IMG/VR virus record: IMGVR_UViG_3300027763_000186
Span: 1-28,579 of that record
Reading direction: 5' to 3' (one strand)
DNA length: 28,579 nt
Origin: a virus
The position numbers and the translations under genes are program-made. Under the pieces are notes generated by a model. The model saw nothing but the letters and a program-made list of their open reading frames with translations, searched no databases and was not told where the DNA came from. Positions 7,924 through 23,982 of this stretch are shown here, one piece after another. The first letter of the stretch is position 1. Each line of letters begins with the position of its first letter.

Positions 7924-7938
7924 TTTAATTACCTTTAC

Positions 7939-8574: not shown

Positions 8575-8581
8575 AAAGATT

Positions 8582-8682
8582 TGGTGTGGTCGGTTGGATT
8601 TGAACCAACAAAGACGGCCAATAGCCTAGTCCCGTCCCTCACCATTTCTGGATTGGAGCTCTGCCAATTTGCTTACGACCAC
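8582..8682 (-). tRNA. tRNA-Leu (class II; anticodon probably CAG)
   Basis: Acceptor GTGGTCG/CGACCAC, A73, CCA, a long variable arm closed by GACGG/CCGTC, and a Leu-type D loop (AATTGGCAGA). The anticodon arm is irregular: the best fit has loop TCCAGAA, giving CAG with C instead of U at position 33 and an A-A pair closing the loop. The promoter at 8689-8717 is directly upstream. Confidence 0.75.
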
Positions 8683-8688
8683 GTATAC

Positions 8689-8717
8689 ATTATACGTTCT
8701 TTAAGGCAAACTGTCAA
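8689..8717 (-). promoter_or_regulatory. sigma70 promoter
   Basis: TTGACA, 17 nt, TATAAT, reading into the tRNA-Leu and tRNA-Arg(CCU) genes. Confidence 0.85.
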
Positions 8718-8726
8718 GTCCGAAGT

Positions 8727-9161
8727 TTAAACGTGATACTCATAGTTGATAGTATCTGCATTTTCACGGAAGGTTTCTGCTCCGTTTTTGTGATGAAATT
8801 TCTTTGCCATTTCAGTCTTAGGACTTAGTGTAACAAAGCGGTTTAGAGTAGGATATTCTGCTTTCAATGCTTCTGTTGCTTTGAATAACAGATCTTTTCC
8901 AGAACCTGGCTTGTAACTCCAAATTGTGTAGAAAATTGCCGCAGTAGGCGCACTTGCTGTTTCTGCTAAATCTTCTACGCTACTAGGGATAAAGTCATGT
9001 AGGCTAACACATACCATTGCGGCAGGTGTATCTTGATCCATTAGGGCAATAACCATACGGCCATCGCTGACTCTAAAGTCAACTGATAGATTCGGTCGAA
9101 CTGGATCATCCTTAATATACTCTAAAAGGCTATTAGAAATGTCTCTAATAAATTTGATCAT
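8727..9161 (-). CDS. GNAT-like acetyltransferase (tentative)
   Basis: A 144-residue protein. The C-terminal part reads RFVTLSPKTEMAKKFHHKNG followed by AETFRENADTINYEY, a pattern of GNAT-type phage proteins in which a final strand pairs after the acetyl-CoA helix. The middle has TIWSYKPGSGKDLLFKATEAL, which could be the pyrophosphate-binding helix. Substrate unknown. Ribosome site CGGAGT. It lies inside the tRNA array, between tRNA-Leu and tRNA-Cys. Confidence 0.5.
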   Translation of the reverse strand: MIKFIRDISNSLLEYIKDDPVRPNLSVDFRVSDGRMVIALMDQDTPAAMVCVSLHDFIPSSVEDLAETASAPTAAIFYTIWSYKPGSGKDLLFKATEALKAEYPTLNRFVTLSPKTEMAKKFHHKNGAETFRENADTINYEYHV

Positions 9162-9221
9162 GATTCGCTACTCCGTCTGTTATATACGTACTTATCTCTT
9201 TTCGCCAAAATCAGCGTTATA

Positions 9222-9299
9222 TGGAGTGGCGGGTCAGATTTGAACTGACGGTTTTACGGATTTGCAATCCGTTGCAATGGGCCTCTCTGCCACCGCCAC
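9222..9299 (-). tRNA. tRNA-Cys (GCA)
   Basis: Acceptor GTGGCGG/CCGCCAC, U73, CCA encoded; anticodon loop TTGCAAA on stem ACGGA/TCCGT. U73 and GCA are the Cys identity elements. Confidence 0.92.
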
Positions 9300-9310
9300 A
9301 TATTATTAGA

Positions 9311-9538
9311 AAGGAACTTGGAGAGTTTTGGTCGACGAAAGTCAGACTTGGCTACCCGCGGCATACAGTCGCGCTCTACTTGTCTAGCAAACATGGAGTA
9401 TCATATGCGTTCGAAGATCGCCCAGACTGTATGTCCTGATCTAGCACCCGGCTGGAGTATGGTCTATAACCATCAAATATTAAAGGCTTCCGACCCTTTA
9501 TACTTCCCACTACGGACTCCCGATACCCTAAGTTCCTT
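9311..9538 (-). ncRNA. Unidentified structured RNA of about 230 nt
   Basis: No protein or tRNA is recognised. The segment is closed by a perfect 9-bp inverted repeat (AAGGAACTT / AAGTTCCTT) and contains a second perfect 9-bp one (CATACAGTC at 9362-9370, GACTGTATG at 9425-9433). It fills the gap between tRNA-Cys and initiator tRNA exactly. Confidence 0.45.
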
Positions 9539-9548
9539 ACTGATAAAA

Positions 9549-9624
9549 TGGTTGCGGGTGAAGGATTCGAACCTCCGGCTTCTAGGTTATGAGCCTAGCG
9601 GTCTGACCACTGACGTAACCCGCG
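9549..9624 (-). tRNA. Initiator tRNA-fMet (CAU)
   Basis: Has the bacterial initiator hallmark, an unpaired C1-A72 at the acceptor end (5' CGCGGGT, 3' ACCCGCA), with A73 and CCA. Anticodon loop CTCATAA on stem CTAGG/CCTAG. Only two of the usual three G-C pairs border the loop. Confidence 0.9.
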
Positions 9625-10118
9625 ATAACTTTATAGGTGCTCTCTGTCCGAGTCGAACGGAACCTGCCAAACTCCTCATCTTCCTTGCACTCCTTGTTCT
9701 TTCTAGAATCGAATAAGGGTTGTGTTCTCAAGTGTAGTTTAGCTACAGAAAGCATTTATAAAGTGTCTAGCTACCTACACCACATAGGCCCTAGACTGAG
9801 CTGTTACTCTGTCCACGTGTTTCTTCTTCTGGTAAAGGTCAGCGTTCCTCACCCTAGGCTGTTTTCAGGATCCCTTAAATAGGGACTGTAAGGTCAAGTC
9901 CTAGTGTACCCCCTGTTCTATCGTTTCAGGGACGCTATTTCGTTAACGTAGAAATAGTAAGACGGGATTACTTCAAAATGAATTTGTTTATCGCTACACA
10001 ATGTCCAAGTCGTGCGCTGAACGTATTACTACGTTTGCTACGGGCATCAGGTACAGTAACAAGTGTCTTGGGCGACTCGCTACTCACATATGGGTAACCG
10101 TACACACATAAACAAAAC
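9625..10118 (-). other. 494-nt gap in the array with local hairpins, no identified gene
   Basis: No protein frame is convincing on either strand. At 9637-9665 there is a tRNA 3'-half-like piece (T arm TTCCG/CGGAC with loop TTCGACT) without a matching 5' half. Hairpins CTATTTC/GAAATAG (9937-9959) and AACGTA/TACGTT near 10019-10034 suggest structured RNA. RNase P RNA motifs were looked for and not seen. Confidence 0.4.
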
Positions 10119-10193
10119 TGGAAGAGCCAAGGGGAGTCGAACCCCTCTTCTCAGGATGAAAACCTGATGTCCTAACCGATAGACGATGGCTCC
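10119..10193 (-). tRNA. tRNA-Glu (UUC), copy 1
   Basis: Acceptor GGAGCCA/TGGCTCT with a G-U first pair, CCA encoded; anticodon loop TTTTCAT on stem TCAGG/CCTGA. Confidence 0.92.
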
Positions 10194-10199
10194 ATATTC

Positions 10200-10275
10200 T
10201 GGAGCGGGCGAAGAGGTTCGAACTCTCGACATTTACCTTGGCAAGGTAATGCTCTACCAACTGAGCTACGCCCGC
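10200..10275 (-). tRNA. tRNA-Gly (GCC)
   Basis: Acceptor GCGGGCG/CGCCCGC, U73, CCA; anticodon loop TTGCCAA on stem TTACC/GGTAA. Confidence 0.93.
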
Positions 10276-10282
10276 ATATATT

Positions 10283-10358
10283 TGGTGGAGGATAACGGGA
10301 TCGAACCGTTGACCTATAGCTTGCAAAGCTACCGCTCTCCCAGCTGAGCTAATCCCCC
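10283..10358 (-). tRNA. tRNA-Ala (UGC), copy 1
   Basis: Acceptor GGGGGAT/ATCCTCC, A73, CCA; anticodon loop TTTGCAA. Its 5' 30 bases are also the last codons of the cytochrome P450 frame. Confidence 0.92.
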
Positions 10359-11489
10359 ATTAATTTTTTCAATAATAATATTTGAAATCATATCAAAGTT
10401 GCCAGGTGCCGTTAAAACAAACTGATAGCCTGCTCGATCAGTGACTACTTTGTACTTACCTGCATGTGTTAACAACATACTCAAATATTGAATCATTACT
10501 GCTTTTGATATTGCTAATGCAATACACGAATGTAAACCAAACCCAAATCCTAAATTAGGAGTTGTTCTAGTAATATCAAAAACATCTGGATTTGTAAACT
10601 TTGAAGGATCTCTATTTGCAGAATCTAAACAAAGCACTACTCGTGTTCCAGGCTTAATCACTGTACCTTGTACAGTAACTTCTTTTAGAACTCTTCTAGC
10701 AAATCTAGCGGTCGCTGTATTAAATCTTAACGACTCATTAACTGCACTCGGTATTAACGAATAGTTAGATTGTAACTGATCTAAAATACTAACTATGTCT
10801 AATGTCAAATATTCTAGCGCACCTGTCATTGATGACATCCCGGCAAATAACGGTGTGGTAAAATTGTGTAGATTAAAATCTGTTTCTAATTTAAATACTT
10901 CTGCATATACTCCAGGTCCTAATGGATCTGTTTTACTAGACACTAAGTCTCTTACTAATTGCATAAATGTTATCAAACTTGTTTCGTCAGTAACATTATT
11001 GTTAGTATCAAGTGCCTTATTAGATGTTCTAAATGTTGTTAGTATTAAAGATTGCATATCATCTTTATTACAAGGCAAATTTAATATTTCTGTTACAATC
11101 CAAGCGGCAATTTCTTCTGCTAAATTTGATACATGTATCGTTGTATCTTTTAAAAACTTTTCTATTTTTAAATTTACAACAGATAATATCCTATCAATGT
11201 TATCTTTACTGTATGCTGATTTGAGAATTTCTTTTAATTTATCGTGTTGTGGATTATCGCTACTACCTAGAGTTTTTCCAAAACGTGTTGGTATTTCTCT
11301 AAGTAAGTTACCTTTTGCAGATGAAAAAATATCTGGATTACTCAATGCAAAAAGTACATCATCATATCTAGTGATAACATACATGTTGTACATGTTACTC
11401 CAATACAACTGATCAGCATCTCGAAGTTCTGAATAATAATTAAACTTATTCAGTAACCAATCATTAGAAAGTGGATCAAATTTTTCCAT
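10329..11489 (-). CDS. Cytochrome P450
   Basis: A 386-residue bacterial-type (soluble, class I size) P450. The I-helix has LFAGMSSMTGAL in place of the usual AGxxT, the K-helix ExxR is ESLR (AVNESLRF), and the heme loop is LGFGFGLHSCIALAIS with the thiolate Cys in FGxGxHxC; ANRDPSKFTNPDVFDITR is the usual meander. The frame ends inside the tRNA-Ala gene. The likely ribosome site GAGGAG lies in the acceptor end of the tRNA-Asn gene upstream. Its AT-rich codons differ from the neighbours, suggesting recent gain. It needs ferredoxin-type electron donors, none of which is in the window unless the rubredoxin serves. Substrate unknown. Confidence 0.92.
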   Translation of the reverse strand: MEKFDPLSNDWLLNKFNYYSELRDADQLYWSNMYNMYVITRYDDVLFALSNPDIFSSAKGNLLREIPTRFGKTLGSSDNPQHDKLKEILKSAYSKDNIDRILSVVNLKIEKFLKDTTIHVSNLAEEIAAWIVTEILNLPCNKDDMQSLILTTFRTSNKALDTNNNVTDETSLITFMQLVRDLVSSKTDPLGPGVYAEVFKLETDFNLHNFTTPLFAGMSSMTGALEYLTLDIVSILDQLQSNYSLIPSAVNESLRFNTATARFARRVLKEVTVQGTVIKPGTRVVLCLDSANRDPSKFTNPDVFDITRTTPNLGFGFGLHSCIALAISKAVMIQYLSMLLTHAGKYKVVTDRAGYQFVLTAPGNFDMISNIIIEKINGGLAQLGER

Positions 11490-11495
11490 TATACT

Positions 11496-11571
11496 TGGCT
11501 CCTCGACCTGGGCTCGAACCAGGGACCAACGGATTAACAGTCCGGCACTCTACCAACTGAGCTATCGAGGA
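11496..11571 (-). tRNA. tRNA-Asn (GUU), copy 1
   Basis: Acceptor TCCTCGA/TCGAGGA, G73, CCA; anticodon loop CTGTTAA. Its 3' end carries GAGGAG that can act as ribosome site for the P450 gene. Confidence 0.93.
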
Positions 11572-11578
11572 AAAAATC

Positions 11579-11800
11579 TTATTCGCTAGCAGTGGCACTA
11601 TTACTTGTTGTAACGTATCCGCCGTTACGAGGAGCGTTCTTATCACGTGGCGCTGTCTTAACAACAATAGCCGCCGCTAGTTCTGCTTGAATCATCATGC
11701 GCTTGTATTGATTACGTTGTTCATCTGTGGAACCTTTCATCAATGCAATCATGCGCTTGGCTGTTTTACTTAACTTAAATGTCTTACCGGGTTTTAACAT
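11579..11800 (-). CDS. Small basic hypothetical protein, 73 aa
   Basis: Starts MLKPGKTFKLSKTAKRMIAL after AAGGAAAAT. Helical N-terminal two thirds, Ser/Thr-rich tail. Not recognised. It sits between tRNA-Val and tRNA-Asn and is probably co-transcribed with them. Confidence 0.65.
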   Translation of the reverse strand: MLKPGKTFKLSKTAKRMIALMKGSTDEQRNQYKRMMIQAELAAAIVVKTAPRDKNAPRNGGYVTTSNSATASE

Positions 11801-11818
11801 ATTTTCCTTTTTGTATTT

Positions 11819-11893
11819 TGGTACCTGGTCACGGTTTCGAACCGCGGACCTTCGCCGTGTAAAGGCGTTGCTCTACCCCTGAGCTAACCAGGC
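11819..11893 (-). tRNA. tRNA-Val (UAC)
   Basis: Acceptor GCCTGGT/ACCAGGT, A73, CCA; anticodon loop TTTACAC on stem ACGCC/GGCGA. Confidence 0.92.
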
Positions 11894-11904
11894 AAACTAT
11901 CTTA

Positions 11905-11981
11905 TGGTCGGAGTACAAGGATTCGAACCTTGGACCCCCTGGTCCCAAACCAGGTGCGCTACCAGACTGCGCCACACTCCG
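11905..11981 (-). tRNA. tRNA-Pro (UGG), copy 1
   Basis: Acceptor CGGAGTG/TACTCCG, A73, CCA; anticodon loop TTTGGGA on stem CCTGG/CCAGG. Confidence 0.93.
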
Positions 11982-11984
11982 AAT

Positions 11985-12215
11985 TTATTTGACTCTTTTT
12001 AGGTATTCGGAACCAATCTTACCTGTTTGTATTTCAAGCAATGCTGTGATGTTGCTGTGAACATGTTCACGCTTGTCACTGTCTCTATGTTGACGCTTGA
12101 TTTCTTTTGCACGGGTTGCGGCAATTAATACTAGATTGTATCTATTTCCTACATTAGCAACACATAAATCTGTGTCAATTTCTGGACCACGACTAAGACC
12201 GATTGGTTTACTCAT
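11985..12215 (-). CDS. rpoZ: RNA polymerase omega subunit (RpoZ-like)
   Basis: A 76-residue protein. CVANVGNRYNLVLIAATRAK matches the omega core (E. coli: [21 protein letters not shown]), followed by VHSNITALLEIQTGKI, which corresponds to the TVIALREIEEGLI segment. Omega clamps the beta-prime C-terminus and helps RNA polymerase assembly. A phage copy could replace the host subunit and change promoter choice or ppGpp response; that is inference. Ribosome site AAAGGT. It lies between tRNA-Gly(UCC) and tRNA-Pro. Confidence 0.88.
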   Translation of the reverse strand: MSKPIGLSRGPEIDTDLCVANVGNRYNLVLIAATRAKEIKRQHRDSDKREHVHSNITALLEIQTGKIGSEYLKRVK

Positions 12216-12239
12216 ATATACCTTTACGTTATTAAACTA

Positions 12240-12313
12240 TGGAGCGGGATAAGAGAATCGAACTCTTGACCGAAGATTGGAAATCTGCTGTTTTACCATT
12301 AAACTAATCCCGC
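12240..12313 (-). tRNA. tRNA-Gly (UCC)
   Basis: Acceptor GCGGGAT/ATCCCGC, U73, CCA; anticodon loop TTTCCAA. Confidence 0.92.
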
Positions 12314-12320
12314 AACTAAA

Positions 12321-12404
12321 TGGTGCCCCAGGGGAGACTCGAACTCCCACGCCTTTCGACAATGGCTTCTAAGACCATCGTGTCTACCATTCCACCACCA
12401 GGGC
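12321..12404 (-). tRNA. tRNA-Leu (UAG)
   Basis: Class II with long variable arm; acceptor GCCCTGG/CTGGGGC, A73, CCA; anticodon loop CTTAGAA on stem ATGGT/GCCAT. Confidence 0.92.
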
Positions 12405-12413
12405 AAAAACTTT

Positions 12414-12488
12414 TGGTGCCGGATGTCGGGATTGAACTGACGACCTACCGCTTACAAGGCGGTTGCTCTACCACTGAGCTAATCCGGC
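12414..12488 (-). tRNA. tRNA-Thr (UGU), copy 1
   Basis: Acceptor GCCGGAT/ATCCGGC, A73, CCA; anticodon loop CTTGTAA on stem ACCGC/GCGGT. A consensus promoter lies directly upstream. Confidence 0.93.
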
Positions 12489-12496
12489 AAATAACT

Positions 12497-12525
12497 ATTA
12501 TAGCAGAATATTTAGTAGCTGTCAA
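12497..12525 (-). promoter_or_regulatory. sigma70 promoter within the tRNA array
   Basis: TTGACA, 17 nt, TATAAT; perfect consensus, between tRNA-Asp and tRNA-Thr(UGU), reading toward lower coordinates. Confidence 0.88.
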
Positions 12526-12542
12526 CTACTGTCTGCTATATC

Positions 12543-12619
12543 TGGCGGAGTAGACGGGACTCGAACCCGCGACCCCCGGCGTGACAGGCCAGTGCGCTAA
12601 CCAACTGCGCTACTACTCC
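12543..12619 (-). tRNA. tRNA-Asp (GUC), copy 1
   Basis: Acceptor GGAGTAG/CTACTCC, G73, CCA; anticodon loop CTGTCAC on stem CTGGC/GCCGG. Confidence 0.93.
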
Positions 12620-12624
12620 AAATA

Positions 12625-12714
12625 TGGCGGAGCGACTGGGAGTCGAACCCAGTGACCGGCTTTCACCGGTCTACGGATTAGCAATCCGCTGCCTTACCGT
12701 TCGGCCACCGCTCC
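12625..12714 (-). tRNA. tRNA-Ser (GCU)
   Basis: Class II; acceptor GGAGCGG/TCGCTCC, G73, CCA; anticodon loop TTGCTAA; variable arm ACCGG/CCGGT. Confidence 0.93.
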
Positions 12715-12717
12715 ATA

Positions 12718-12780
12718 TTAAAACACACTAACAACTACCAGAAACGACTATGTCTACTCGGTTCGGTCAATGTGCTTTAA
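12718..12780 (-). ncRNA. AU-stem element C1
   Basis: 10-bp closing stem TTAAAGCACA / TGTGTTTTAA (one G-U). It starts right after the CCA of tRNA-Tyr and ends just before tRNA-Ser(GCU). Shares GACATAGTC with C2 and TTAAAGCAC with C4. No cloverleaf could be drawn. Confidence 0.45.
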
Positions 12781-12782
12781 TA

Positions 12783-12866
12783 TGGTGGAGTATCCTGGGA
12801 TCGAACCAGGCATGTCTAAGACGGCGGATTTACAGTCCACTGCATCACCGTTGATGCTTCTACTCC
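12783..12866 (-). tRNA. tRNA-Tyr (GUA), copy 1
   Basis: Class II; acceptor GGAGTAG/ATACTCC (last pair mismatched), A73, CCA; anticodon loop CTGTAAA on stem GTGGA/TCCGC. Confidence 0.92.
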
Positions 12867-12925
12867 ACAAGGTTTACTTGTAATTAATTTTTAAAGAACG
12901 TATGTTAATCTCTTAACATGTATGT

Positions 12926-12954
12926 ATTATAACATCACTTTGTAGCATTGTCAA
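12926..12954 (-). promoter_or_regulatory. sigma70 promoter within the tRNA array
   Basis: TTGACA, 17 nt, TATAAT; perfect consensus, in the gap between tRNA-Ser(UGA) and tRNA-Tyr. Confidence 0.88.
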
Positions 12955-12971
12955 CTGATTTTTTTCATTAT

Positions 12972-13061
12972 TGGCGGAAGCGGTGAGATTCGAACTCACG
13001 GACCATTTCTGATCGTCTGTTTTCAAGACAGGTGCAATAAACCGGACTCTGCCACACTTCC
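12972..13061 (-). tRNA. tRNA-Ser (UGA)
   Basis: Class II; acceptor GGAAGTG/CGCTTCC, G73, CCA; anticodon loop CTTGAAA. Confidence 0.92.
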
Positions 13062-13086
13062 ATTGTCAGTTACTTAGTATATCAAT

Positions 13087-13163
13087 TGGTACCCCCTGTC
13101 TGATTCGAACAGACATCCAACTCCTTTTGAGAGAATCCGCACTACCAATTAGCGTAAGGGGGC
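13087..13163 (-). tRNA. tRNA with Leu anticodon CAA but class I body
   Basis: Acceptor GCCCCCT/AGGGGGT with G1-U72, A73, CCA; T arm normal. Loop CTCAAAA gives CAA (reads UUG). The variable region is only five bases, unlike any normal bacterial tRNA-Leu. Its 5' third (ACGCTAATTGGTA) is shared with the UAA tRNA at 14638-14714. Confidence 0.8.
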
Positions 13164-13164
13164 A

Positions 13165-13238
13165 TGGTGCTCTAACGTAGAATCGAACTACGATTGCTCG
13201 CATACCAAGCGAGTGTTCTACCATTAAACTATAAGAGC
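13165..13238 (-). tRNA. tRNA-Thr (GGU)
   Basis: Acceptor GCTCTTA/TTAGAGC (one T-T mismatch), A73, CCA; anticodon loop TTGGTAT on stem CTCGC/GCGAG. Confidence 0.9.
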
Positions 13239-13398
13239 ATATAGGTTTTCCAAGAGACCCGCTATCTTTCTTAAGGACTCACTGGCTTGTCTCGTATAGG
13301 AGAGTTTATGCTACCTTGTACAGCTACTGGTGTGTCATGCTCAAGAAAAAAGGGCACTAGCATACAAGGGACTCATCCCCACGTCTATCTCAGAAACT
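13239..13398 (-). other. Structured gap between tRNA genes
   Basis: No tRNA or protein recognised. Holds hairpin GGGA/TCCC around TGAG and two blocks, TGCTACCTTGTA (13309-13320) and TAGCATACAAGG (13358-13369), whose parts are complementary but in swapped order, so CCTTGTA/TACAAGG and TGCTA/TAGCA could form a pseudoknot or alternate. Confidence 0.4.
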
Positions 13399-13473
13399 TG
13401 GTACCGCTTAGTGGAATCGAACCACTATTATGAATTTAGAAGAATCATGTCCTATCCATTGAACGAAAGCGGT
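13399..13473 (-). tRNA. tRNA-Arg (UCU)
   Basis: Acceptor ACCGCTT/AAGCGGT, A73, CCA; anticodon loop CTTCTAA on a stem with one mismatch. Confidence 0.88.
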
Positions 13474-13558
13474 AAATATTCATGTGAAGACCTACGAAAG
13501 CATTACTCCCGGCGGGCTACACTTTCATCTATCTTTATATGAGGGTGTGTGCATTGTT

Positions 13559-13645
13559 ATGGTTCGTGATATCTACGATATAGAACTTACAGTGCGATAC
13601 TTTACCAATGTCAACAAAGCACTTCGCTTCATCAACAACTTGTAA
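13559..13645 (+). CDS. Possible 28-aa peptide on the opposite strand
   Basis: Reads MVRDIYDIELTVRYFTNVNK and ends ALRFINNL, then TAA, ending directly at the stop of the convergent radical SAM gene. A GAGG lies 13 bases upstream. The composition looks protein-like, but length and isolation on the plus strand make it uncertain; it may be a remnant. Confidence 0.3.
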   Translation: MVRDIYDIELTVRYFTNVNKALRFINNL

Positions 13646-14578
13646 TTAAATTACGCCAATCGACGATAATTTTTTGATTTTTCTAAGCGGCTTGCTTTGA
13701 ACTTTTAATTTGATATCTTCGACGAATGTATCGAATTGTTCGTAGGGTATGACATGATGTTGTCTTTCATCCCCTAAGAATTCTTCAACAACCATTCCGT
13801 CTGGACTTTCGAGGAAAAATATCTGTGCAAATTCGTATTGATACGGAATGTTAAATTCTTTGCCAGTCAATTTTAACTTGGCATTTTCTTTAACCTCATT
13901 GACCATCTCTGTTAATGTTTGACGAGTGTTATCCCACAGACAATTTTTGTATGTAAAATTTTCATCAAGCTCTGCAATAAGATTGCAAAAGTCTTGGTCC
14001 AAATGACGAATTAATTTTAATTCATCATTATACATATGATCTGCAATTAATACATTAAGATATTTAAGTCTAGTATGTTCTTTGACATCTCGCATGGCCT
14101 GTCTAATAACTGCTAGATATTCTCCAGTGAATTCTTCGTCAACAATTAAATTTACTTTGAAGTTTGAAATGTGCTCTGCAAACATATCAATAGTTTTTAG
14201 ATACTTGTCTGTGAGTCTATCATCTCTAAGTATTTCTTTAAAGTGAATACTAATAGTAAAATATAAGTTATCTTTATGTTCAAGACTGTCAATAAATCTC
14301 TTATAGTGTAATCTGCTTAATGTACCGTTACTATATGTAAAAGTTTTTGCTTTAGCAGTAGCTTGATTGACTAGCAGGTTAAATCCTTTGAGCAACAGGG
14401 GCTCGCCCCCGTTTAATACAAAGCCAGTGTCTTCACCGTACAATTCCAAAATTTTATCAATCTTAGATGTATAGTAGTCAAACGGAAGTACATCTTGTTC
14501 AAAATAATTATAACAGTATTTGCACCCAATATTACATTTTGTAAACAATTGATATACTACACATAATTTATTCTTCAT
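13646..14578 (-). CDS. Radical SAM protein
   Basis: A 310-residue protein. The 4Fe-4S motif is CNIGCKYC (CxxxCxxC, residues 15-22) and GGEP appears as NGGEPLLL near residue 58; an IH-containing strand follows. Only two further Cys (DFCNL, KNCLW) occur in the C-terminal half, too few for a full SPASM domain. Such enzymes cut S-adenosylmethionine to make a radical for RNA, peptide or cofactor modification; the neighbours (tRNAs) make tRNA modification possible but not shown. Ribosome site GAAGGACTGAG, with GATAAATA 24 bases upstream. AT-rich like the P450 gene. Confidence 0.85.
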   Translation of the reverse strand: MKNKLCVVYQLFTKCNIGCKYCYNYFEQDVLPFDYYTSKIDKILELYGEDTGFVLNGGEPLLLKGFNLLVNQATAKAKTFTYSNGTLSRLHYKRFIDSLEHKDNLYFTISIHFKEILRDDRLTDKYLKTIDMFAEHISNFKVNLIVDEEFTGEYLAVIRQAMRDVKEHTRLKYLNVLIADHMYNDELKLIRHLDQDFCNLIAELDENFTYKNCLWDNTRQTLTEMVNEVKENAKLKLTGKEFNIPYQYEFAQIFFLESPDGMVVEEFLGDERQHHVIPYEQFDTFVEDIKLKVQSKPLRKIKKLSSIGVI

Positions 14579-14601
14579 TTCTCAGTCCTTCACTAGTGAG
14601 A

Positions 14602-14609
14602 TATTTATC
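14602..14609 (-). promoter_or_regulatory. T4-late-like promoter box GATAAATA
   Basis: Differs from the T4 late consensus TATAAATA only at the first base and stands upstream of the radical SAM gene. The same 8-mer is upstream of the plus-strand operon (26829-26836). Confidence 0.4.
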
Positions 14610-14637
14610 CTCTAAATTTTGTGAATACTGACTAAAC

Positions 14638-14714
14638 TGGTACCCTTAGGTGGATTCGAACCTCCAGACAACGGATTTTAAATCCATTCGCGTTACCAAT
14701 TAGCGTACAAGGGC
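14638..14714 (-). tRNA. tRNA with Leu anticodon UAA but class I body
   Basis: Acceptor GCCCTTG/TAAGGGT with G1-U72, A73, CCA. Loop TTTAAAA on stem ATGGA/TCCGT gives UAA (reads UUA). Short variable region, as in the CAA tRNA at 13087-13163, with which it shares ACGCTAATTGGTA. Confidence 0.8.
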
Positions 14715-14937
14715 ATATTGAATTTGTAAGTAGTTGCCCCATCGTTATAGCAACCATTCACCCATGTATATAAAGCCGGCTGGGACTCGGTACGTCACTT
14801 GGGATTCATCCAGTCTGCCTCCGTTACAGGCCTCCGCAGTTCCCCGCGGGTGGGAGTTGAACCCAAAACCTTCTACTATACAGTACCTTCGAAGAATACT
14901 GAATAGCGTGACTTCACTTGCTGACACTTACAAAACT
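14715..14937 (-). other. Structured gap, possible tRNA remnant
   Basis: A T-arm-like segment (TTGGG/CCCAC, loop TTCAACT) near 14849-14865 and an anticodon-arm-like CAGTA/TACTG hairpin with an 11-base loop are present, but no acceptor stem closes them. GTTGC/GCAAC and CCGC/GCGG hairpins also occur. No protein is recognised. Confidence 0.4.
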
Positions 14938-15013
14938 TGGTGCTACCTCCAGGGATCGAACCTGGTTCCTCGGTGCTTCAAACCGGTGCTATGACCACAT
15001 CAGCTAAAGTAGC
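14938..15013 (-). tRNA. tRNA-Phe (GAA)
   Basis: Acceptor GCTACTT/AGGTAGC, A73, CCA; anticodon loop TTGAAGC. Confidence 0.9.
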
Positions 15014-15023
15014 ATTAAATTGT

Positions 15024-15098
15024 TGGTGGATGATGTAGGGTTCGAACCTACGACCGCTTGGATGTCGACCAAGTATTCTACCACTGAAATAATCATCC
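15024..15098 (-). tRNA. tRNA-Val (GAC), with C33
   Basis: Acceptor GGATGAT/ATCATCC, A73, CCA. Loop TCGACAT on stem CTTGG/CCAAG gives GAC; position 33 is C instead of the near-universal U. Confidence 0.85.
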
Positions 15099-15099
15099 T

Positions 15100-15175
15100 T
15101 GGGGTGTTAGATGGGGAACGATCCCATACTATCGCTTTCACAGAGCAATGTGCAGACCACTACACTACTAACACC
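15100..15175 (-). tRNA. tRNA-His (GUG)
   Basis: Acceptor GTGTTAG/CTAACAC with the extra G at -1 opposite C73, the His identity pair; CCA encoded. Loop CTGTGAA. The T loop is ATCGTTC, not the usual TTCGANN. Confidence 0.9.
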
Positions 15176-15181
15176 ATAGAT

Positions 15182-15258
15182 TGGCCGGCCCTGAGAGACT
15201 CGAACTCCCAACTTCCAGTTTCGAAGACTGGCACTCTATCCATTTGAGTTAAGGACCG
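15182..15258 (-). tRNA. tRNA-Arg (UCG)
   Basis: Acceptor CGGTCCT/AGGGCCG, G73, CCA; anticodon loop CTTCGAA on stem CCAGT/ACTGG. Confidence 0.92.
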
Positions 15259-15264
15259 ATTGTT

Positions 15265-15338
15265 TGGCACCCGGAGTAAGAATCGAACTTACAATAGCAG
15301 AGTCAAAGTCTGTTGTGTTACCACTACACTATCCGGGA
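15265..15338 (-). tRNA. tRNA-Gln (UUG)
   Basis: Acceptor TCCCGGA/TCCGGGT with an open first pair (as in Gln tRNAs), G73, CCA; anticodon loop CTTTGAC. Confidence 0.9.
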
Positions 15339-15345
15339 ATAAATT

Positions 15346-15419
15346 TGGCGTACCTCCAGGGACTCGAACCCCGACCGACAGTTTTGGAGACTGTAATGCT
15401 GCCATTACACTAGAGATAC
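15346..15419 (-). tRNA. tRNA-Trp (CCA)
   Basis: Acceptor GTATCTC/GAGGTAC, G73, CCA; anticodon loop CTCCAAA on stem ACAGT/ACTGT. Confidence 0.92.
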
Positions 15420-15424
15420 ATAAT

Positions 15425-15500
15425 TGGTAGTAACGGTCGGACTCGAACCGACGATAAACACCGTATGAAGGTGGTGCATTAGCCACTATGCTACGTTACC
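15425..15500 (-). tRNA. tRNA with CAU anticodon (elongator Met or Ile2)
   Basis: Acceptor GGTAACG/CGTTACT with G1-U72, A73, CCA; loop TTCATAC. It lacks initiator features. Whether it is Met or lysidine-modified Ile cannot be decided by eye. Confidence 0.85.
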
Positions 15501-15501
15501 A

Positions 15502-15586
15502 TATAGAAACACACTCGAGCCGTTTTCATCAGAAGACGGTGGCTTGGCCTCACACAGACTATGTCCGTATCGAATATGTTTTTATA
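15502..15586 (-). ncRNA. AU-stem element C2
   Basis: 12-bp closing stem TATAAAAACATA / TGTGTTTCTATA (one A-C mismatch, one wobble), starting right after the CCA of tRNA-Lys(UUU). Contains GACATAGTC, as in C1, and a CCGT/ACGG hairpin. Confidence 0.45.
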
Positions 15587-15662
15587 TGGTAGGAGCACCG
15601 GGACTCGAACCCGGAACTGGCAGATTAAAAGTCTGCTGTGATAACCATTTCACTATACTCCC
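15587..15662 (-). tRNA. tRNA-Lys (UUU)
   Basis: Acceptor GGGAGTA/TGCTCCT, A73, CCA; anticodon loop CTTTTAA on stem GCAGA/TCTGC. Its anticodon arm and flanks closely resemble the interior of element M4. Confidence 0.92.
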
Positions 15663-15666
15663 GTAT

Positions 15667-15742
15667 TGGTCCCTAGCGACAGATTCGAACTGTCACCTCA
15701 TCGGTTAAGAGCCGAGTACGCTACCGTTAACGCCAGCTAGGG
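15667..15742 (-). tRNA. tRNA-Lys (CUU)
   Basis: Acceptor CCCTAGC/GCTAGGG, A73, CCA; anticodon loop CTCTTAA on stem CTCGG/CCGAT. Confidence 0.92.
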
Positions 15743-15825
15743 TTAGTTGTATTAAATTGATTTAATGTGCCAACCCTAGACCAATACGGGATCTAGAGCG
15801 ACACTAACGTTTAGCACGTTTCATA

Positions 15826-15954
15826 TCATTCTCCTTTGTTGATATTCTTCTTTTGGGCTTGGCGCTCTGATTTCCAGAACACTCGTTTCCAATCTTTCAA
15901 ATGCTTCCACCACTGTGGAGGCGCTGTTAGGTTACCTTTTTTGACATTTGCCAT
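15826..15954 (-). CDS. Small basic protein, 42 aa
   Basis: Reads MANVKKGNLTAPPQWWKHLK then DWKRVFWKSERQAQKK. The APPQWWKHL core followed by basic Trp-rich helix recurs in small proteins of large phages as I recall it; function unknown. Ribosome site AAGGAACTC. Element M4 forms its 5' leader. A 6-codon frame MKRAKR follows at 15804-15824 behind AAAGGAG. Confidence 0.65.
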   Translation of the reverse strand: MANVKKGNLTAPPQWWKHLKDWKRVFWKSERQAQKKNINKGE

Positions 15955-15977
15955 TTGAGTTCCTTATACTATAAAAC

Positions 15978-16038
15978 AGGATGTATTTTTACTGGTTAGA
16001 TTAAAAGTCTAGTGTAATAAATTTGCTGTTAACATCCT
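15978..16038 (-). ncRNA. AGGAT/ACAGCAA element, copy M4
   Basis: Arms AGGATGT / ACATCCT, conserved TAACAGCAA and CTGTTT. Inside is a 17-base arm (15996-16012) with loop CTTTTAA, that is a tRNA-Lys(UUU)-type anticodon arm, without D or T arms. It follows the CCA of tRNA-Thr copy 2. Confidence 0.65.
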
Positions 16039-16043
16039 TAACT

Positions 16044-16117
16044 TGGTGCCCCATGACAGAATCGAACTGCCGTAACCTGATTACAAAACAGGTGTAATAC
16101 CATTATACTAAAAGGGC
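16044..16117 (-). tRNA. tRNA-Thr (UGU), copy 2
   Basis: Acceptor GCCCTTT/ATGGGGC (one mismatch), A73, CCA; loop TTTGTAA next to a T-T mismatch. Diverged from copy 1 at 12414-12488. Confidence 0.85.
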
Positions 16118-16126
16118 AAATAAAAC

Positions 16127-16187
16127 AGGATAGCATTTTTTGGCTTTTTTTCAAGAAAAGATTTTTAATGTTTGCTGTTGCTATCCT
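16127..16187 (-). ncRNA. AGGAT/ACAGCAA element, copy M5
   Basis: 8-bp arms AGGATAGC / GCTATCCT with AACAGCAAA and CTGTTTT. Inside is a 5+7+5 arm CTTTT-CTTGAAA-AAAAG whose loop equals that of the phage tRNA-Ser(UGA). It lies between tRNA-Pro copy 2 and tRNA-Thr copy 2. Confidence 0.65.
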
Positions 16188-16192
16188 AAAAC

Positions 16193-16268
16193 TGGTCTCC
16201 CTACTTGGATTCGAACCAAGACCCTACGGCCCCAAACCGCAAATGCAACCAGGTAACACTTTAGAGAG
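16193..16268 (-). tRNA. tRNA-Pro (UGG), copy 2
   Basis: Acceptor CTCTCTA/TAGGGAG, A73, CCA; loop TTTGGGG on stem TGCGG/CCGTA. D-arm region differs from copy 1. Confidence 0.85.
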
Positions 16269-16274
16269 ATAATT

Positions 16275-16349
16275 TGGTGGAGGCCGAGGGAATCGAACCC
16301 TTCTAGTCACGATGCTTGCAAGGCAACGCCGTAGCCCACTACTGCCCCC
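16275..16349 (-). tRNA. tRNA-Ala (UGC), copy 2
   Basis: Acceptor GGGGGCA/GGCCTCC (last pair mismatched), A73, CCA; loop CTTGCAA on a stem with one mismatch. Confidence 0.85.
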
Positions 16350-16352
16350 ATA

Positions 16353-16443
16353 TATAAACACACTACCAGTCCCCGGGATTCGAACCCACTTCTCTTGTAG
16401 TTTACCACGACTTTTACGGTCGGGCAAGTAATGTGTTTGTATA
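16353..16443 (-). ncRNA. AU-stem element C3 with tRNA-like T arm
   Basis: Closing stem AAACACATTACT / GGTAGTGTGTTT (12 bp with G-U pairs) extended by TATA. It has a T arm (TGGG/CCCG, loop TTCGAAT) and a CGAC/GTCG hairpin, but no regular anticodon arm. Position and T arm suggest a tRNA with a greatly lengthened acceptor stem, or a derivative of one. Confidence 0.5.
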
Positions 16444-16522
16444 TGGCTCCGTGTGTGAGGATCGAACTCACCTAATCACTGATTAACAGTCAGGTCCTTG
16501 CACCATGCTTGGATTTCACGGA
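16444..16522 (-). tRNA. tRNA-Asn (GUU), copy 2
   Basis: Acceptor TCCGTGA/ACACGGA (last pair mismatched), G73, CCA; loop CTGTTAA on stem CCTGA/TCAGT. D arm longer than in copy 1. Confidence 0.87.
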
Positions 16523-16529
16523 ATAGAAT

Positions 16530-16604
16530 TGGCGCCGCTGACGAGAATCGAACTCGCCTAAATCTGATAGACAATCAGTTACCCTCCCAGAGAGCTACAA
16601 CGGC
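16530..16604 (-). tRNA. tRNA-Asp (GUC), copy 2
   Basis: Acceptor GCCGTTG/CAGCGGC, G73, CCA; loop TTGTCTA. The loop differs from copy 1 (CTGTCAC) at 32, 37 and 38; position 37 is T. Confidence 0.85.
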
Positions 16605-16608
16605 ATAT

Positions 16609-16683
16609 TGGTACTCCGAACGGGTTTCGATCCCGCTTCTCCAACTTGAAAGGCTGGCGTCCTAGCCACTAGACGACCGGAGT
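16609..16683 (-). tRNA. tRNA-Glu (UUC), copy 2
   Basis: Acceptor ACTCCGG/TCGGAGT, A73, CCA; loop CTTTCAA on stem CCAGC/GTTGG. Confidence 0.88.
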
Positions 16684-16693
16684 ATAATTAAAC

Positions 16694-16747
16694 AGGATAC
16701 ATTTTTTTCACCATAAGAAAAGTTGTAAGTGTTGCTGTTAGTATCCT
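16694..16747 (-). ncRNA. AGGAT/ACAGCAA element, copy M6
   Basis: Arms AGGATAC / GTATCCT with TAACAGCAA and CTGTTT. Inside, TTTTC/GAAAA closes a 7-base loop TTATGGT. It lies between tRNA-Ile(GAU) and tRNA-Glu copy 2. Confidence 0.6.
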
Positions 16748-16752
16748 AAACT

Positions 16753-16826
16753 TGGTCCTCTCGACAAGAATCGAACTTGTAATGGCCGGTTATCAGCCGA
16801 CTGTTATACCATTTAACTACAAGAGG
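16753..16826 (-). tRNA. tRNA-Ile (GAU)
   Basis: Acceptor CCTCTTG/CGAGAGG, A73, CCA; loop CTGATAA on stem GTCGG/CCGGC. Confidence 0.9.
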
Positions 16827-16832
16827 AATATT

Positions 16833-16924
16833 TGGTACCAGCGGAGGGGATCGAACCCTCTCAAGAACGCTAATCTGGCGCTAAAAGGTGTATAAGACCT
16901 CTCTGACTTCCAAGTCTCGCTGGC
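16833..16924 (-). tRNA. Class II tRNA with UAU anticodon (reads AUA)
   Basis: Acceptor GCCAGCG/CGCTGGT, A73, CCA; T arm GAGGG/CCCTC. Loop CTTATAC on stem GAGGT/ACCTT gives UAU, an Ile anticodon, but a 24-nt variable region with stem AGCGC/GCGTT is present, as in Ser, Leu or Tyr tRNAs. Confidence 0.8.
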
Positions 16925-19057: not shown

Positions 19058-19197
19058 TAGAATGCCTCGTATTCGTCTTTACCGCAACCGCACTCAGGAC
19101 AAGTAAAGGATTCATCTAAGTCATCCCACTTGCCTTCTAGTTCTTCATTGTGCTCGTGTCCGCAGACTACGCAGATGTATACTTGATCATTCATCAT
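19057..19197 (-). CDS. Rubredoxin-like protein, 46 aa
   Basis: Two Cys pairs: YICVVCGHEH and FTCPECGCGKDEYEAF. CxxCG twice plus the GKDEYE ending is the rubredoxin pattern, so an Fe(Cys)4 electron carrier is likely. The ATG overlaps the stop of the rubrerythrin-like gene (ATGA). Together they look like a rubrerythrin divided into its two domains. It might also serve as redox partner for other phage enzymes such as the P450; that is speculation. Confidence 0.85.
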   Translation of the reverse strand: MMNDQVYICVVCGHEHNEELEGKWDDLDESFTCPECGCGKDEYEAF

Positions 19198-19643
19198 AGT
19201 GTCTCCAAAACTTTCTTGTAAGCATTAGCATGACGTTCTTCAACTTTCTTAAGAGCATTGAAACGCTTTTCTGCTTTGGCTAGAACTTGGGCAAATTGTT
19301 CAGCGTGTAGTTTGCTTTCAGCAATTTGGTGTTCTGCTTCTTTAGCCGCTTCTAATTCACCTTCACGAATTGCAAGAGCTTGAAACTGTGGATACATTTC
19401 TGTAAACTCATATGTTTCGCCTTCGATGGCCTTTTCTAAACATTCTTTAGTTGTTGGTTTGCCAATTAGTAATTCTAAATGGCCCCATGCATGTAGCAGT
19501 TCTTGATCTGCTGTATGTTCGAAATGTTTGGCAACATCTTCGAATCCTTCTTCGCGAGCAATCTTTGCGAAGTAACGGTATTTGACATGAGCTTGGCTTT
19601 CACCTGCTAATGCGCTACCTAAGTTTGCTAATGTAACTGACAT
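19194..19643 (-). CDS. Rubrerythrin-like diiron protein without rubredoxin domain
   Basis: A 149-residue four-helix ferritin-like protein. Iron ligands are visible as E-x-x-H-type pairs: GESQAHVKYRYFAK, EHTADQELLHAWGH, EGETYEFTEMYP and AESKLHAEQF, following the rubrerythrin order. Rubrerythrin reduces hydrogen peroxide. The usual C-terminal rubredoxin domain is instead the next gene. Ribosome site AAGGAG; promoter at 19664-19693. Confidence 0.88.
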   Translation of the reverse strand: MSVTLANLGSALAGESQAHVKYRYFAKIAREEGFEDVAKHFEHTADQELLHAWGHLELLIGKPTTKECLEKAIEGETYEFTEMYPQFQALAIREGELEAAKEAEHQIAESKLHAEQFAQVLAKAEKRFNALKKVEERHANAYKKVLETL

Positions 19644-19784: not shown

Positions 19785-20495
19785 TTAGAATGATTTTGCT
19801 ACAGAAAATACCAAAGCATCTTTGTATAATTTCTGACCGTTAACAGTATTAGCAGTCATAAATGTTGATGTCTTGTTGTCGTTAATGTAGTACTTAGCGG
19901 CCAAGTTCCAACCTTGCAAATCATAACCAAGACCAACGTTGTAGTCAGTGTAGTCCAATGTAGAACTGTTAGCAACATTAGTACGACCAACGTGTGCAAG
20001 TGCTACTAATTTACCAACAACTGGGATTGCCGCATCTGCTTGAACATAGAAACTGTTCTTGCTGTTAGCTGTGCCAAAGTAGTCACTGACAGCATGGCTG
20101 TATTTTACAGAGACAAGTTCTTTGTAACCAATGCCAGCATACAATTCGTTAGTGTCGAAACTACCGTTTGTTCCTGCACGTGGAAAGAAATAGTTCATTG
20201 TACCTACATCAAGTGTAAAGTTTCCAAAAACTTGTTTCTTAAAACCTGCATAAACATCACTCTCGATGCCTGCACCATTTGTGTACAGTTGGCTTGAAAC
20301 ACTACTGTTCCAGTTACCAATATACAAACCACTTACGTGATTGTAATCAATACCACCCTGTACTGCTGGAGCATTTTGGGTTTGACTTACACCACGGAAT
20401 CTGTAGTCTGAGGTCAAGCCCAAATTGCCAGTAACCTCTGCTTGGGCAACAGAAATACCTGCTACCATCATTAATGCTAATAAAAGCTTCTTCAT
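19785..20495 (-). CDS. TIGR02001-like outer-membrane beta-barrel protein
   Basis: A 236-residue protein with a clear signal peptide (MKKLLLALMMVAGISVAQA, cut after AQA). The mature part starts EVTGNLGLTSDYRFRGVSQT, the hallmark of the proteobacterial TIGR02001/Gcw_chp family, and has alternating beta strands ending in an aromatic (SVAKSF), the outer-membrane assembly signal. Members are common in betaproteobacteria; the function is not established. A phage copy may alter the infected cell's surface or permeability. Its ATG overlaps the stop of a 12-codon leader. The promoter contains a palindrome. Confidence 0.85.
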   Translation of the reverse strand: MKKLLLALMMVAGISVAQAEVTGNLGLTSDYRFRGVSQTQNAPAVQGGIDYNHVSGLYIGNWNSSVSSQLYTNGAGIESDVYAGFKKQVFGNFTLDVGTMNYFFPRAGTNGSFDTNELYAGIGYKELVSVKYSHAVSDYFGTANSKNSFYVQADAAIPVVGKLVALAHVGRTNVANSSTLDYTDYNVGLGYDLQGWNLAAKYYINDNKTSTFMTANTVNGQKLYKDALVFSVAKSF

Positions 20496-21583: not shown

Positions 21584-22145
21584 TTTTTTCCTCTATAATA
21601 TAAAAATCTGGGAAATTTGGGCTTTTAATACGGTGTCGCATAGTCTCGGAGTTTCCCATACCGTACGCTTTTGATGCATCTGTAATACTGTCAAATATGC
21701 CTAGCGGAGTATGAACTTTCTTACAGATTTTCTTTTTAGAAGCTTCAATCCGCTTTTTATGATACTCAGGATTAGAATCACGAACAGCAATCGCGGCATA
21801 ATACTTTTCCCAATATTGAGGATCTTCTTTTGACTTTAGATAGGCTTCTCTATTATTTTCTTTATATTCAGCCATTCTCTCTGGATCGTTTCTAAAATCG
21901 TCAATCCCCTTTCGTAAATTTATAAGATATCTTGGATTTTTTAATCTTTTTTCTAATGCTTCCTGATCCGAACTATGGTCTCGGGTTTCCATTGCTGTTT
22001 TGTGTTTTTTCTTAAACTCAGGATCTTGATATTTTTCCTTAAGAATCTTGCTAACTTCTTCTTTTTCATAATCGCTTTTGACACGATTCCATTTTTGATT
22101 TATTTTAAAATTAGCAGGGAGATTACTTTTGAAGTTTGCCATCAT
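21576..22145 (-). CDS. NUMOD-like DNA-binding protein (tentative)
   Basis: A 189-residue, highly basic protein of repeated short helices separated by Pro (DPEFKKKHKTA; NPRYLINLRK; NPEYHKKRIEASKKKICKKV), followed by a C-terminal VHTPLGIFDSITDASKAYGM that resembles the NUMOD1 helix-turn-helix repeat of homing endonucleases (TPLGxFxSxxeAa). No HNH or GIY-YIG catalytic part is seen, so it may be a free-standing remnant or a DNA-binding protein. Ribosome site GAGGTGA. Confidence 0.5.
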   Translation of the reverse strand: MMANFKSNLPANFKINQKWNRVKSDYEKEEVSKILKEKYQDPEFKKKHKTAMETRDHSSDQEALEKRLKNPRYLINLRKGIDDFRNDPERMAEYKENNREAYLKSKEDPQYWEKYYAAIAVRDSNPEYHKKRIEASKKKICKKVHTPLGIFDSITDASKAYGMGNSETMRHRIKSPNFPDFYIIEEKND

Positions 22146-23028
22146 TCACCTCAATAGAGTTAGCAATCAGACTCATTTTAATCCATTTTTCTGGAAATCG
22201 ATACCTATTATGTGCTACCTTAGTAGCAAATCGCGGAGTGATTCCGACTAAATTTGGATAATAATCTTCAAAAAAGTTTAAGACATCTTGAATGATCTCT
22301 TCGTCATAGCCGTCTTTTTTACTGCGGCAGTTTTCTGACAGCATTCCTTTTTCTTGAATAAGATATTTTGTCCATAGATATTTGTCTTTTTTATTCCAGT
22401 CTAATATACCGGGAGTAAATCGACCGCCTTCGCCGACTAATGCACCAAAGTGCTGTGCAGTAGATGGTTTCTTAAGAAGATCTTCAGGTCTTTCATTTGT
22501 AATCCAAATAATGTTCCCCCAGTATTCAAACTTAGGAGGTATTTTATTTTCAATCATCATCTTATTAGGTGCTGCCTTAACCCATGCAACTACTCGGGGT
22601 TTATATATATTTTCTGTAGCAGACTTTAATAGTGCAATAATGCTTTTTGCTTCTGCGCCGCCTTTAGTTAAGTCGACATCGTCTAATACTAATACTCGAT
22701 GTTTTTGACGGTTAAACCAAAGCAACCCGTAAAAACCTGCGGCACTAATGTCAGCACCTTTTAGGTATTCTACACTGGCACCGGCATCGGTTAGTGCCTT
22801 AGTTACCATTTCTGTTTTACCGATGCCCGGTGGTCCAAAAACCGCCAATCCTTTAGATCCATCTAAATCACTAGCAAAGTTTGCTGTGATATCGTAGATA
22901 TTATCCATTTCGATTTGTAGGCGATCGATATGGTCTTGTTCGGCCTGTTGTTCGGCCTCAAATTTCTTTTTGGGGGATGCGTATTCCATATCGGAATCGC
23001 GAGAGATAGCTCGTAGTACTGTGGTCAT
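22123..23028 (-). CDS. AAA+ ATPase
   Basis: A 301-residue protein with Walker A GPPGIGKT (residues 65-72), Walker B VLVLDDVD, sensor-1-like IIWITNERP and an Arg-rich C-terminal lid (ITPRFATKVAHNRYRF). It resembles clamp-loader or MoxR-type phage ATPases; the partner is unknown. Very strong ribosome site AAGGAGGTTG and consensus promoter make it the leading gene of its operon, followed by two overlapping genes. Confidence 0.8.
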   Translation of the reverse strand: MTTVLRAISRDSDMEYASPKKKFEAEQQAEQDHIDRLQIEMDNIYDITANFASDLDGSKGLAVFGPPGIGKTEMVTKALTDAGASVEYLKGADISAAGFYGLLWFNRQKHRVLVLDDVDLTKGGAEAKSIIALLKSATENIYKPRVVAWVKAAPNKMMIENKIPPKFEYWGNIIWITNERPEDLLKKPSTAQHFGALVGEGGRFTPGILDWNKKDKYLWTKYLIQEKGMLSENCRSKKDGYDEEIIQDVLNFFEDYYPNLVGITPRFATKVAHNRYRFPEKWIKMSLIANSIEVNDGKLQK

Positions 23029-23138: not shown

Positions 23139-23168
23139 ACACTTATTTTGCCAAAGTGGTATATAAGA

Positions 23169-23186
23169 AAGCCCCCGAAGGGGCTT
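23169..23186 (-). terminator. Intrinsic terminator of the tmRNA gene
   Basis: Stem AAGCCCC / GGGGCTT with TTCG loop, then TCTT. Confidence 0.8.
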
Positions 23187-23189
23187 CTG

Positions 23190-23556
23190 GTTATTTGGAT
23201 GATAAGGTAAGTCCTACCTCACGAGCGTTGTTTCTTAGGCAACTAGTCTGCTGTCGGCTGTGAAGCCTTCAACAGAGTAATACTCGAATGTAGATGCGTT
23301 TGCATTTACTAGTTTTTTGCTGATTACGTCAGTCAACTCTCGTGTTGCCGTCTCTATTATCTCACCCTGTCGAAACCATGGCAGGCCCATTATAAAACAC
23401 ACTTTGGTTTATTAAGAGTTATGGCTATGCCAAAGAGCTCCTGGGATACCAAACCTAATCTTTTTACGGATTCAAGTATGCTTTATGGTGGACCTGGCGG
23501 GAGTCGAACCCGCGTCCAGAATGCCTTCACTTTGAAGGGATTACAACAATTCTTAA
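23190..23556 (-). ncRNA. ssrA: Permuted (two-piece) tmRNA
   Basis: Read 5' to 3' on the minus strand, the 3' (acceptor) half comes first: TTCTGGACGCGGGTTC, T arm GCGGG/CCCGC with loop TTCGACT (23497-23513), CAGGTCC, A, CCA ending at 23486. After 97 bases of intervening sequence the 5' end starts at 23388 with GGGCCTG, which pairs fully with CAGGTCC to form the 7-bp acceptor stem, followed by the conserved GGTTTCGACAGGG. The tag frame is 23303-23235: resume codon GCA, tag ANASTFEYYSVEG... ending ...ADSRLVA, then TAA (22 residues). Non-polar LVA end fits a protease degron. This gene order defines two-piece tmRNAs. It frees stalled ribosomes and tags their products. Confidence 0.93.
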
Positions 23557-23559
23557 AAA

Positions 23560-23625
23560 TTAACGTTTTTTCTTAGTAGCTCTTTTTGCGGCACGTTCCA
23601 TTGGTGTTGGCTTTTTGCGTGACAT
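23560..23625 (-). CDS. Very small basic protein, 21 aa
   Basis: MSRKKPTPMERAAKRATKKK plus R, behind TAAAGGAG. About half the residues are Lys or Arg. It lies directly in front of the tmRNA gene. Function unknown; nucleic-acid binding is likely from charge alone. Confidence 0.5.
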   Translation of the reverse strand: MSRKKPTPMERAAKRATKKKR

Positions 23626-23778: not shown

Positions 23779-23982
23779 TTATTGTGGATGAATATTACTA
23801 GCCTGCTTGCCTTTTTGGCCTTGCACAACATCAAACGTTACTGATTGATTTTCTTGCAAGACTTTGAAGCCTGGAGTCTGTATTGCTGAGTAGTGAGCAA
23901 ATAAATCCTCACCACCGTTGTCTGGAGTAATAAACCCAAAACCTTTGGTTTCATTAAACCATTTTACTTTACCTGTTGCCAT
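23779..23982 (-). CDS. Cold-shock domain protein
   Basis: A 67-residue single OB-fold protein with RNP1 KGFGFI and RNP2-like DLFAHYSAI, in full register with CspA ([20 protein letters not shown]). It binds single-stranded RNA or DNA and melts RNA structure. Its place next to small basic proteins and the tmRNA suggests a role in RNA handling. Ribosome site AGGAAAA. Confidence 0.93.

Follow-up and report, generated by a model that had tools for sequence, protein, structure and literature searches.

The window, by which we mean the whole stretch of 28,579 nucleotides analysed here (IMG/VR virus record IMGVR_UViG_3300027763_000186), carries a genuine permuted tmRNA gene (ssrA) of the beta type, and the observation made earlier from the letters alone is confirmed. 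Phage permuted tmRNAs are already known and are common in viral contigs and aquatic phages; this gene stands out by its unusually long tag. A potentially new phenomenon is found in its close relatives, where the spacer between the two pieces carries protein genes as cargo.

The identification rests on several programs. Rfam model RF01850 (beta_tmRNA) matches positions 23591-23164 of the minus strand with 124.8 bits (gathering cut-off 84, E 6e-38) and RF04321 (tmRNA_permuted) matches 23548-23235 of the same strand with 124.4 bits (gathering cut-off 47), the full model being covered in both cases; the covariance search that the preliminary description had asked for is therefore positive, far above cut-off, for both models. 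ARAGORN calls a tmRNA* (its permuted form) at 23578-23144, minus strand, with the tag ANASTFEYYSVEGFTADSRLVA*. A pattern that encodes the permuted order has one match in the window and none in 100 shuffles. Together with the Rfam scores, this rules out chance or tRNA mimicry, and a one-piece tmRNA is ruled out by the order of the segments. The claim that a phage-type contig bears a tmRNA of the two-piece kind also holds, given the Rfam and ARAGORN calls, the virus record and the 35 tRNA genes of the contig. The span first proposed, 23190-23556, covers the core of the gene, but the Rfam match is about 35 nt longer at the 5' end and reaches 23164 at the 3' end. Coordinates are collected in the table.

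Table. Features of the permuted tmRNA gene and its neighbours in the window
Feature	Position	Strand	Basis or remark
Permuted tmRNA gene (ssrA), beta type, terminator-like hairpin included	23164..23591	-	Rfam RF01850 and RF04321, ARAGORN tmRNA*
Acceptor (3') piece	23486..23548	-	Rfam, direct order check; 5' end of the piece approximate
T arm	23513-23497	-	Within the acceptor piece
Acceptor 3' strand CAGGTCC	23496-23490	-	Direct order check
ACCA	23489-23486	-	Direct order check
Intervening spacer, 97 nt, expected to be removed	23389..23485	-	Direct order check, folding, ORF scan
GGGCCTG, acceptor-stem 5' strand, start of the coding (5') piece, holds G3 of G3.U70	23382..23388	-	Direct order check
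GGTTTCGAC, conserved D-loop-like segment of the tRNA-like domain	23369..23377	-	Sequence, Rfam, pattern
Tag CDS ANASTFEYYSVEGFTADSRLVA plus TAA, resume signal TAGTAAAT just before	23235..23303	-	ARAGORN, direct order check
Terminal hairpin AAGCCCCTTCGGGGGCTT, terminator-like	23169..23186	-	Last helix of the beta_tmRNA model, terminator scan
Gene for a cold-shock-domain protein, upstream of the tmRNA	23779..23982	-	Pfam CSD, E 4.9e-29
AAA-type ATPase gene, downstream of the tmRNA	22123..23028	-	Pfam AAA, 22.9 bits, cut-off 21.2

Read along the transcript, the order is T arm, CAGGTCC, ACCA, spacer, GGGCCTG, TGGTTTCGAC, resume signal TAGTAAAT, tag codons and terminator-like hairpin. Direct verification on the sequence thus bears out what had been claimed: the acceptor half with T arm and CCA lies upstream of the 5' half and tag, and the spacer measures exactly 97 nt (23485-23389). 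The acceptor stem GGGCCTG/CAGGTCC had been described as a perfect 7-bp helix. All seven positions are indeed paired across the spacer, but not all of the pairs are Watson-Crick, since pair 3 is G.U. This G3.U70 is the identity pair of alanyl-tRNA synthetase and is expected in a tmRNA; its frequency over the relatives is fixed by our search pattern, so that it would be circular to use it as evidence. Pairs 4 and 5, which the pattern leaves free, are of C-G, G-C and A-U types in 160 unique spacers and are always paired. A single closed hairpin is predicted for acceptor and spacer together (-37.1 kcal/mol, z -4.15, none of 200 shuffles as good), the ends of the spacer pairing into a closing stem of the 12-bp class. 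The tag frame runs from GCA to TAA after the resume signal and has a hydrophobic end; both ARAGORN and direct reading give the 22 residues ending in LVA that were first reported. The terminator scan scored the terminal hairpin on the plus strand, and the tail on the gene's own strand is TCTTATAT.

In our opinion, this is very probably a functional phage-borne ssrA gene of the beta permuted type, with processing, charging and tagging as follows; the two-piece nature of the mature RNA, its charging and its tagging activity are inferred from the biology of two-piece tmRNAs (reviewed in PMC3985003). A single precursor would fold through the acceptor stem, RNase P would cut before GGGCCTG, and 3' processing would expose the CCA; the spacer would be lost and the two pieces would remain paired. 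The host alanyl-tRNA synthetase would charge the phage tmRNA via G3.U70 and host SmpB would deliver it to stalled ribosomes, where translation would resume at GCA and append ANASTFEYYSVEGFTADSRLVA, the LVA end directing the tagged product to host proteolysis. Host factors are assumed because neither SmpB nor SspB was found in 18 related phage records, in a search for which control genomes were positive. Further factors may be encoded beyond the window, which is a fragment of 28.6 kb. The most likely role is that ribosome recycling is kept up during infection with a tag of the phage's own choosing, a long sequence selected as protein.

Comparison with relatives is consistent with such use. We compared the gene with L211, the nearest relative found via the tag (L labels denote IMG/VR viral contigs unless otherwise named). 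The acceptor piece is 94.5% identical (69 of 73 positions) and the coding piece before the tag 76%, while the tag CDS, at 98.6%, exceeds all other segments of the gene, its one difference in 69 nt being synonymous. The spacer is 44% identical and unalignable. A discarded spacer and a functioning tag would be expected to give just this contrast between conserved parts and divergent spacer.

These data bear on two other readings. The tRNA-like part might act as a decoy, inhibiting host rescue by titrating SmpB or by competing with the host's tmRNA, in which case the tag itself would matter little. There is a precedent in mycobacteriophage DS6A, which has a tRNA-like tmRNA lacking a tag: a molecule resembling it is a strong inhibitor of tmRNA (PMC4131195). 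We consider a decoy very unlikely for the present gene, whose complete tag CDS stands behind a canonical resume signal and is better conserved against L211 than any other segment. Still less probable is a relic that was acquired from a host and is no longer in use. Phages that integrate at ssrA do acquire ssrA fragments, and several short matches in Salmonella and Escherichia phages consist of the 3' end only; the gene of the window, however, is complete, scores highly against the models and is conserved in pairing, tag and synteny.

The synteny concerns the two flanking genes. L130-L133, with an AAA protein 74% identical to that of the window, preserve the order cold-shock protein, tmRNA, AAA ATPase, and in L211 a cold-shock-domain protein gene likewise lies upstream of the tmRNA. 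In the window the AAA gene has a promoter-like site of its own (23138-23110). Judged by the AAA gene, the closest record is G001 (214 kb, 92%), in which the permuted tmRNA is located elsewhere and has a different long tag. Further from the tmRNA, the window holds, all on the minus strand, the 35 tRNA genes (8500-16924), which serve most amino acids, include duplicates and are interspersed with small ORFs, and two further weak tRNA-like matches (8585-8682 and 12786-12866). Amid the tRNA genes lies a cytochrome P450 gene (10329-11489, Pfam p450 60.5 bits), for which tblastn against 50,697 phage records returned no match. Other genes on that strand encode a DUF2828/DUF7788 protein (6511-7989), widespread in phages, a radical SAM protein (13646-14578), a rubrerythrin (19194-19643) and an outer-membrane-type Gcw_chp protein (19785-20495).

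We disagree with the preliminary description regarding rarity. It held that phage tmRNAs are rare and that no permuted one was well described. In fact, the two-piece tmRNA of methylophage Melnitz was published in 2022, in a study that called 53 of 133 unique phage tmRNA structures two-piece (PMC9004378), and our strict permuted pattern finds at least 119 viral contigs, of which ARAGORN confirms nearly all. The Melnitz tmRNA resembles that of the window in being phage-encoded, circularly permuted and provided with a full tag, but it is of the alphaproteobacterial type and linked to a glutamine riboswitch, whereas the window has the beta type and a long tag.

Permuted tmRNAs above the RF04321 cut-off are also found in phage isolates from six host genera: XacN1 (Xanthomonas), SM1 and PA_L9 (Pseudomonas), QDWS359 (Stenotrophomonas), BUCT628 (Acinetobacter), QDWS595 (Alcaligenes) and PHB04 (Bordetella). 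All are permuted like the window, but their tags are short, 10-13 residues. The record regions examined for these phages contain no tmRNA feature annotation, and some of the phages infect genera whose own tmRNA is one-piece. The Xanthomonas jumbo phage XacN1 (L002) has two permuted copies of equal score, and at the copy examined a GOLLD RNA lies about 1 kb downstream. A permuted tmRNA with the divergent tag GKNDAFYYEAA is also present near trfA on the Pandoraea oxalativorans plasmid pPO70-1 (L212).

Among cellular genes, the betaproteobacterial permuted tmRNA (RF01850/RF04321) agrees with the window in order, tRNA-like domain, resume signal, terminal hairpin and the TRAAT/TGAT-type leader before G1. 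Cupriavidus, however, has a spacer of 32 nt and the 10-residue tag ANDEKFALAA, against 97 nt and 22 residues in the window. The strict pattern found nothing in a bacterial genome panel, a search that had no positive control and required a spacer of at least 70 nt, longer than that of Cupriavidus.

The long tag is not peculiar to the window. In 159 unique genes, a sample in which one long-tag motif is over-represented, the tags have either 8-15 or 22-33 residues and no intermediate length, a bimodal distribution; where genes were collected without regard to the tag, 25 of 103 have long ones. For the first 18 codons of the main long-tag family, ANADTFDFSAMSFTGNTV...ALAA, pN/pS is 0.19, compared with 0.71 when the frame is shifted, and the variation of the family is concentrated at third positions to an excess that none of 20,000 column shuffles reaches. 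The ratio was computed for this family only; the tag of the window falls within the same range of lengths, begins in a related way (ANASTFE, compared with ANADTFE) and differs from that of L211 by the one synonymous change. Such conservation at the protein level argues that the tag is translated, and this would fit both roles suggested in the preliminary description, a backup for rescue when host tmRNA fails and a different degron. A scan for the DNA motif of the main family (not that of the window's tag) gave hits in 81 viral contigs; among 84,980 species genomes, where the search had no positive control, it gave none. A tblastn search for long tags in isolated phages gave no match, a weak negative since it used two short queries. 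In these searches, long tags of this class have so far been seen only in viruses.

Why should a tag be so long? It might be more than a degron, namely an address or a binding site (for a phage protein or an adaptor, or a bypass of SspB), degradation being secondary. The two separate length classes and the conserved extension would fit such a function, and so would the build of 20 of the 55 long tags, in which the extension is placed before an ordinary ANDxxFALAA-like decapeptide. Nearly all long tags, however, have a ClpX-type end (LAA, VAA, IAA or LVA), so that degradation is probably retained, and we regard an address as rather unlikely.

Nineteen unique spacers of 53-268 nt (L144 ... L151, the window included) are bordered by the same flanks, 66 nt on one side and 46 nt on the other (112 nt in all); the relatives are metagenome assemblies, in which short identical flanks could favour chimeras. 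These flanks are identical to the window in L211, L202 and L151. L211 has the same tag as the window and L210 nearly the same, whereas L202, L151 and L130 belong to the ANADTF tag family. The spacer of L202 is nevertheless 95.9% identical to that of the window, so the two elements seem to be reshuffled without regard to each other. Differing or unrelated spacers between identical flanks suggest a cassette-like exchange.

Many spacers in the relatives contain genes. We searched 160 unique strict-pattern spacers for ORFs of 15 codons or more that follow a Shine-Dalgarno sequence, start with ATG close to the CCA and stop no further than 14 nt from G1. Such an ORF occurs in 38 of them, where shuffles predict about 0.5, although the overall fraction is inflated because one contributing scan selected for Shine-Dalgarno plus ATG. 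This count supersedes an earlier and looser one of 27 against 8.9 expected. The share is 15 of 35 for spacers of 110-170 nt and 3 of 6 above 170 nt, with at most 0.04 expected; these spacers come mostly from scans that selected by length and not for Shine-Dalgarno plus ATG. Families of spacer ORFs have pN/pS values of 0.16-0.38, several of them based on just two to four sequences. A complete thioredoxin (Pfam E 4e-21) occupies the spacers of L151 (T arm at 500, minus strand), L182 and L281, and the tmRNA genes that harbour it still score 93-136 bits as permuted tmRNA. The spacer of L249 encodes a protein of phrog_13558, that of L282 has two consecutive ORFs, and nested ORFs are found in L283, L220, L125, L130, L210, L285 and others as well. 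Chimeras alone are an unlikely source, since they would not create selected ORFs that end at the junction; nested ORFs are also present in contigs of 191-339 kb (L120, L125, L220, L285).

Unlike L151, L130 and L210, the window has no Shine-Dalgarno-led ATG or GTG ORF in its spacer. A TTG-started frame of 20 codons was rejected for want of a proper Shine-Dalgarno sequence. A stop one base before G1 was likewise rejected as coding evidence by itself, because TGAT or TAAT immediately precedes G1 in 124 of 141 spacers (TGAT in Cupriavidus too); the motif may serve as an RNase P leader that nested ORFs have taken over as a stop codon.

In 39 of 42 ORF-bearing spacers the Shine-Dalgarno sequence falls within the spacer closing stem, whose other strand often encodes the C-terminus VSL*. 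The cargo slot itself is well supported in the relatives by these sequence comparisons. A further step, which we put forward only tentatively and hold to be somewhat improbable as a whole, is that the precursor is both tmRNA and mRNA and that its maturation is tied to ribosome availability. Small genes (for membrane peptides, Zn-finger-like proteins, thioredoxin) would be swapped into the spacer, with the ribosome-binding site of the cargo locked in the closing stem and its stop usually one base before the RNase P cut. This placement of binding site and stop would make translation of the cargo and maturation of the rescue RNA mutually exclusive, and tmRNA maturation would then respond to ribosome availability. 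Such coupling is speculation on our part. The window copy would represent the same scaffold with a non-coding spacer. We found no report of protein genes nested in a tmRNA spacer in the open-licence literature.

For phage biology, the analysis indicates that many aquatic phages have two-piece tmRNAs and that in a large subset of them a long tag, selected as protein, appears to stand in place of the usual degradation tag. Why phages carry tmRNA becomes directly testable through tag swaps. Protein genes nested in a removable spacer between identical flanks would mean that a by-product of processing has been turned into a gene slot, and these spacer genes suggest a possible link between translation and the maturation of tmRNA.
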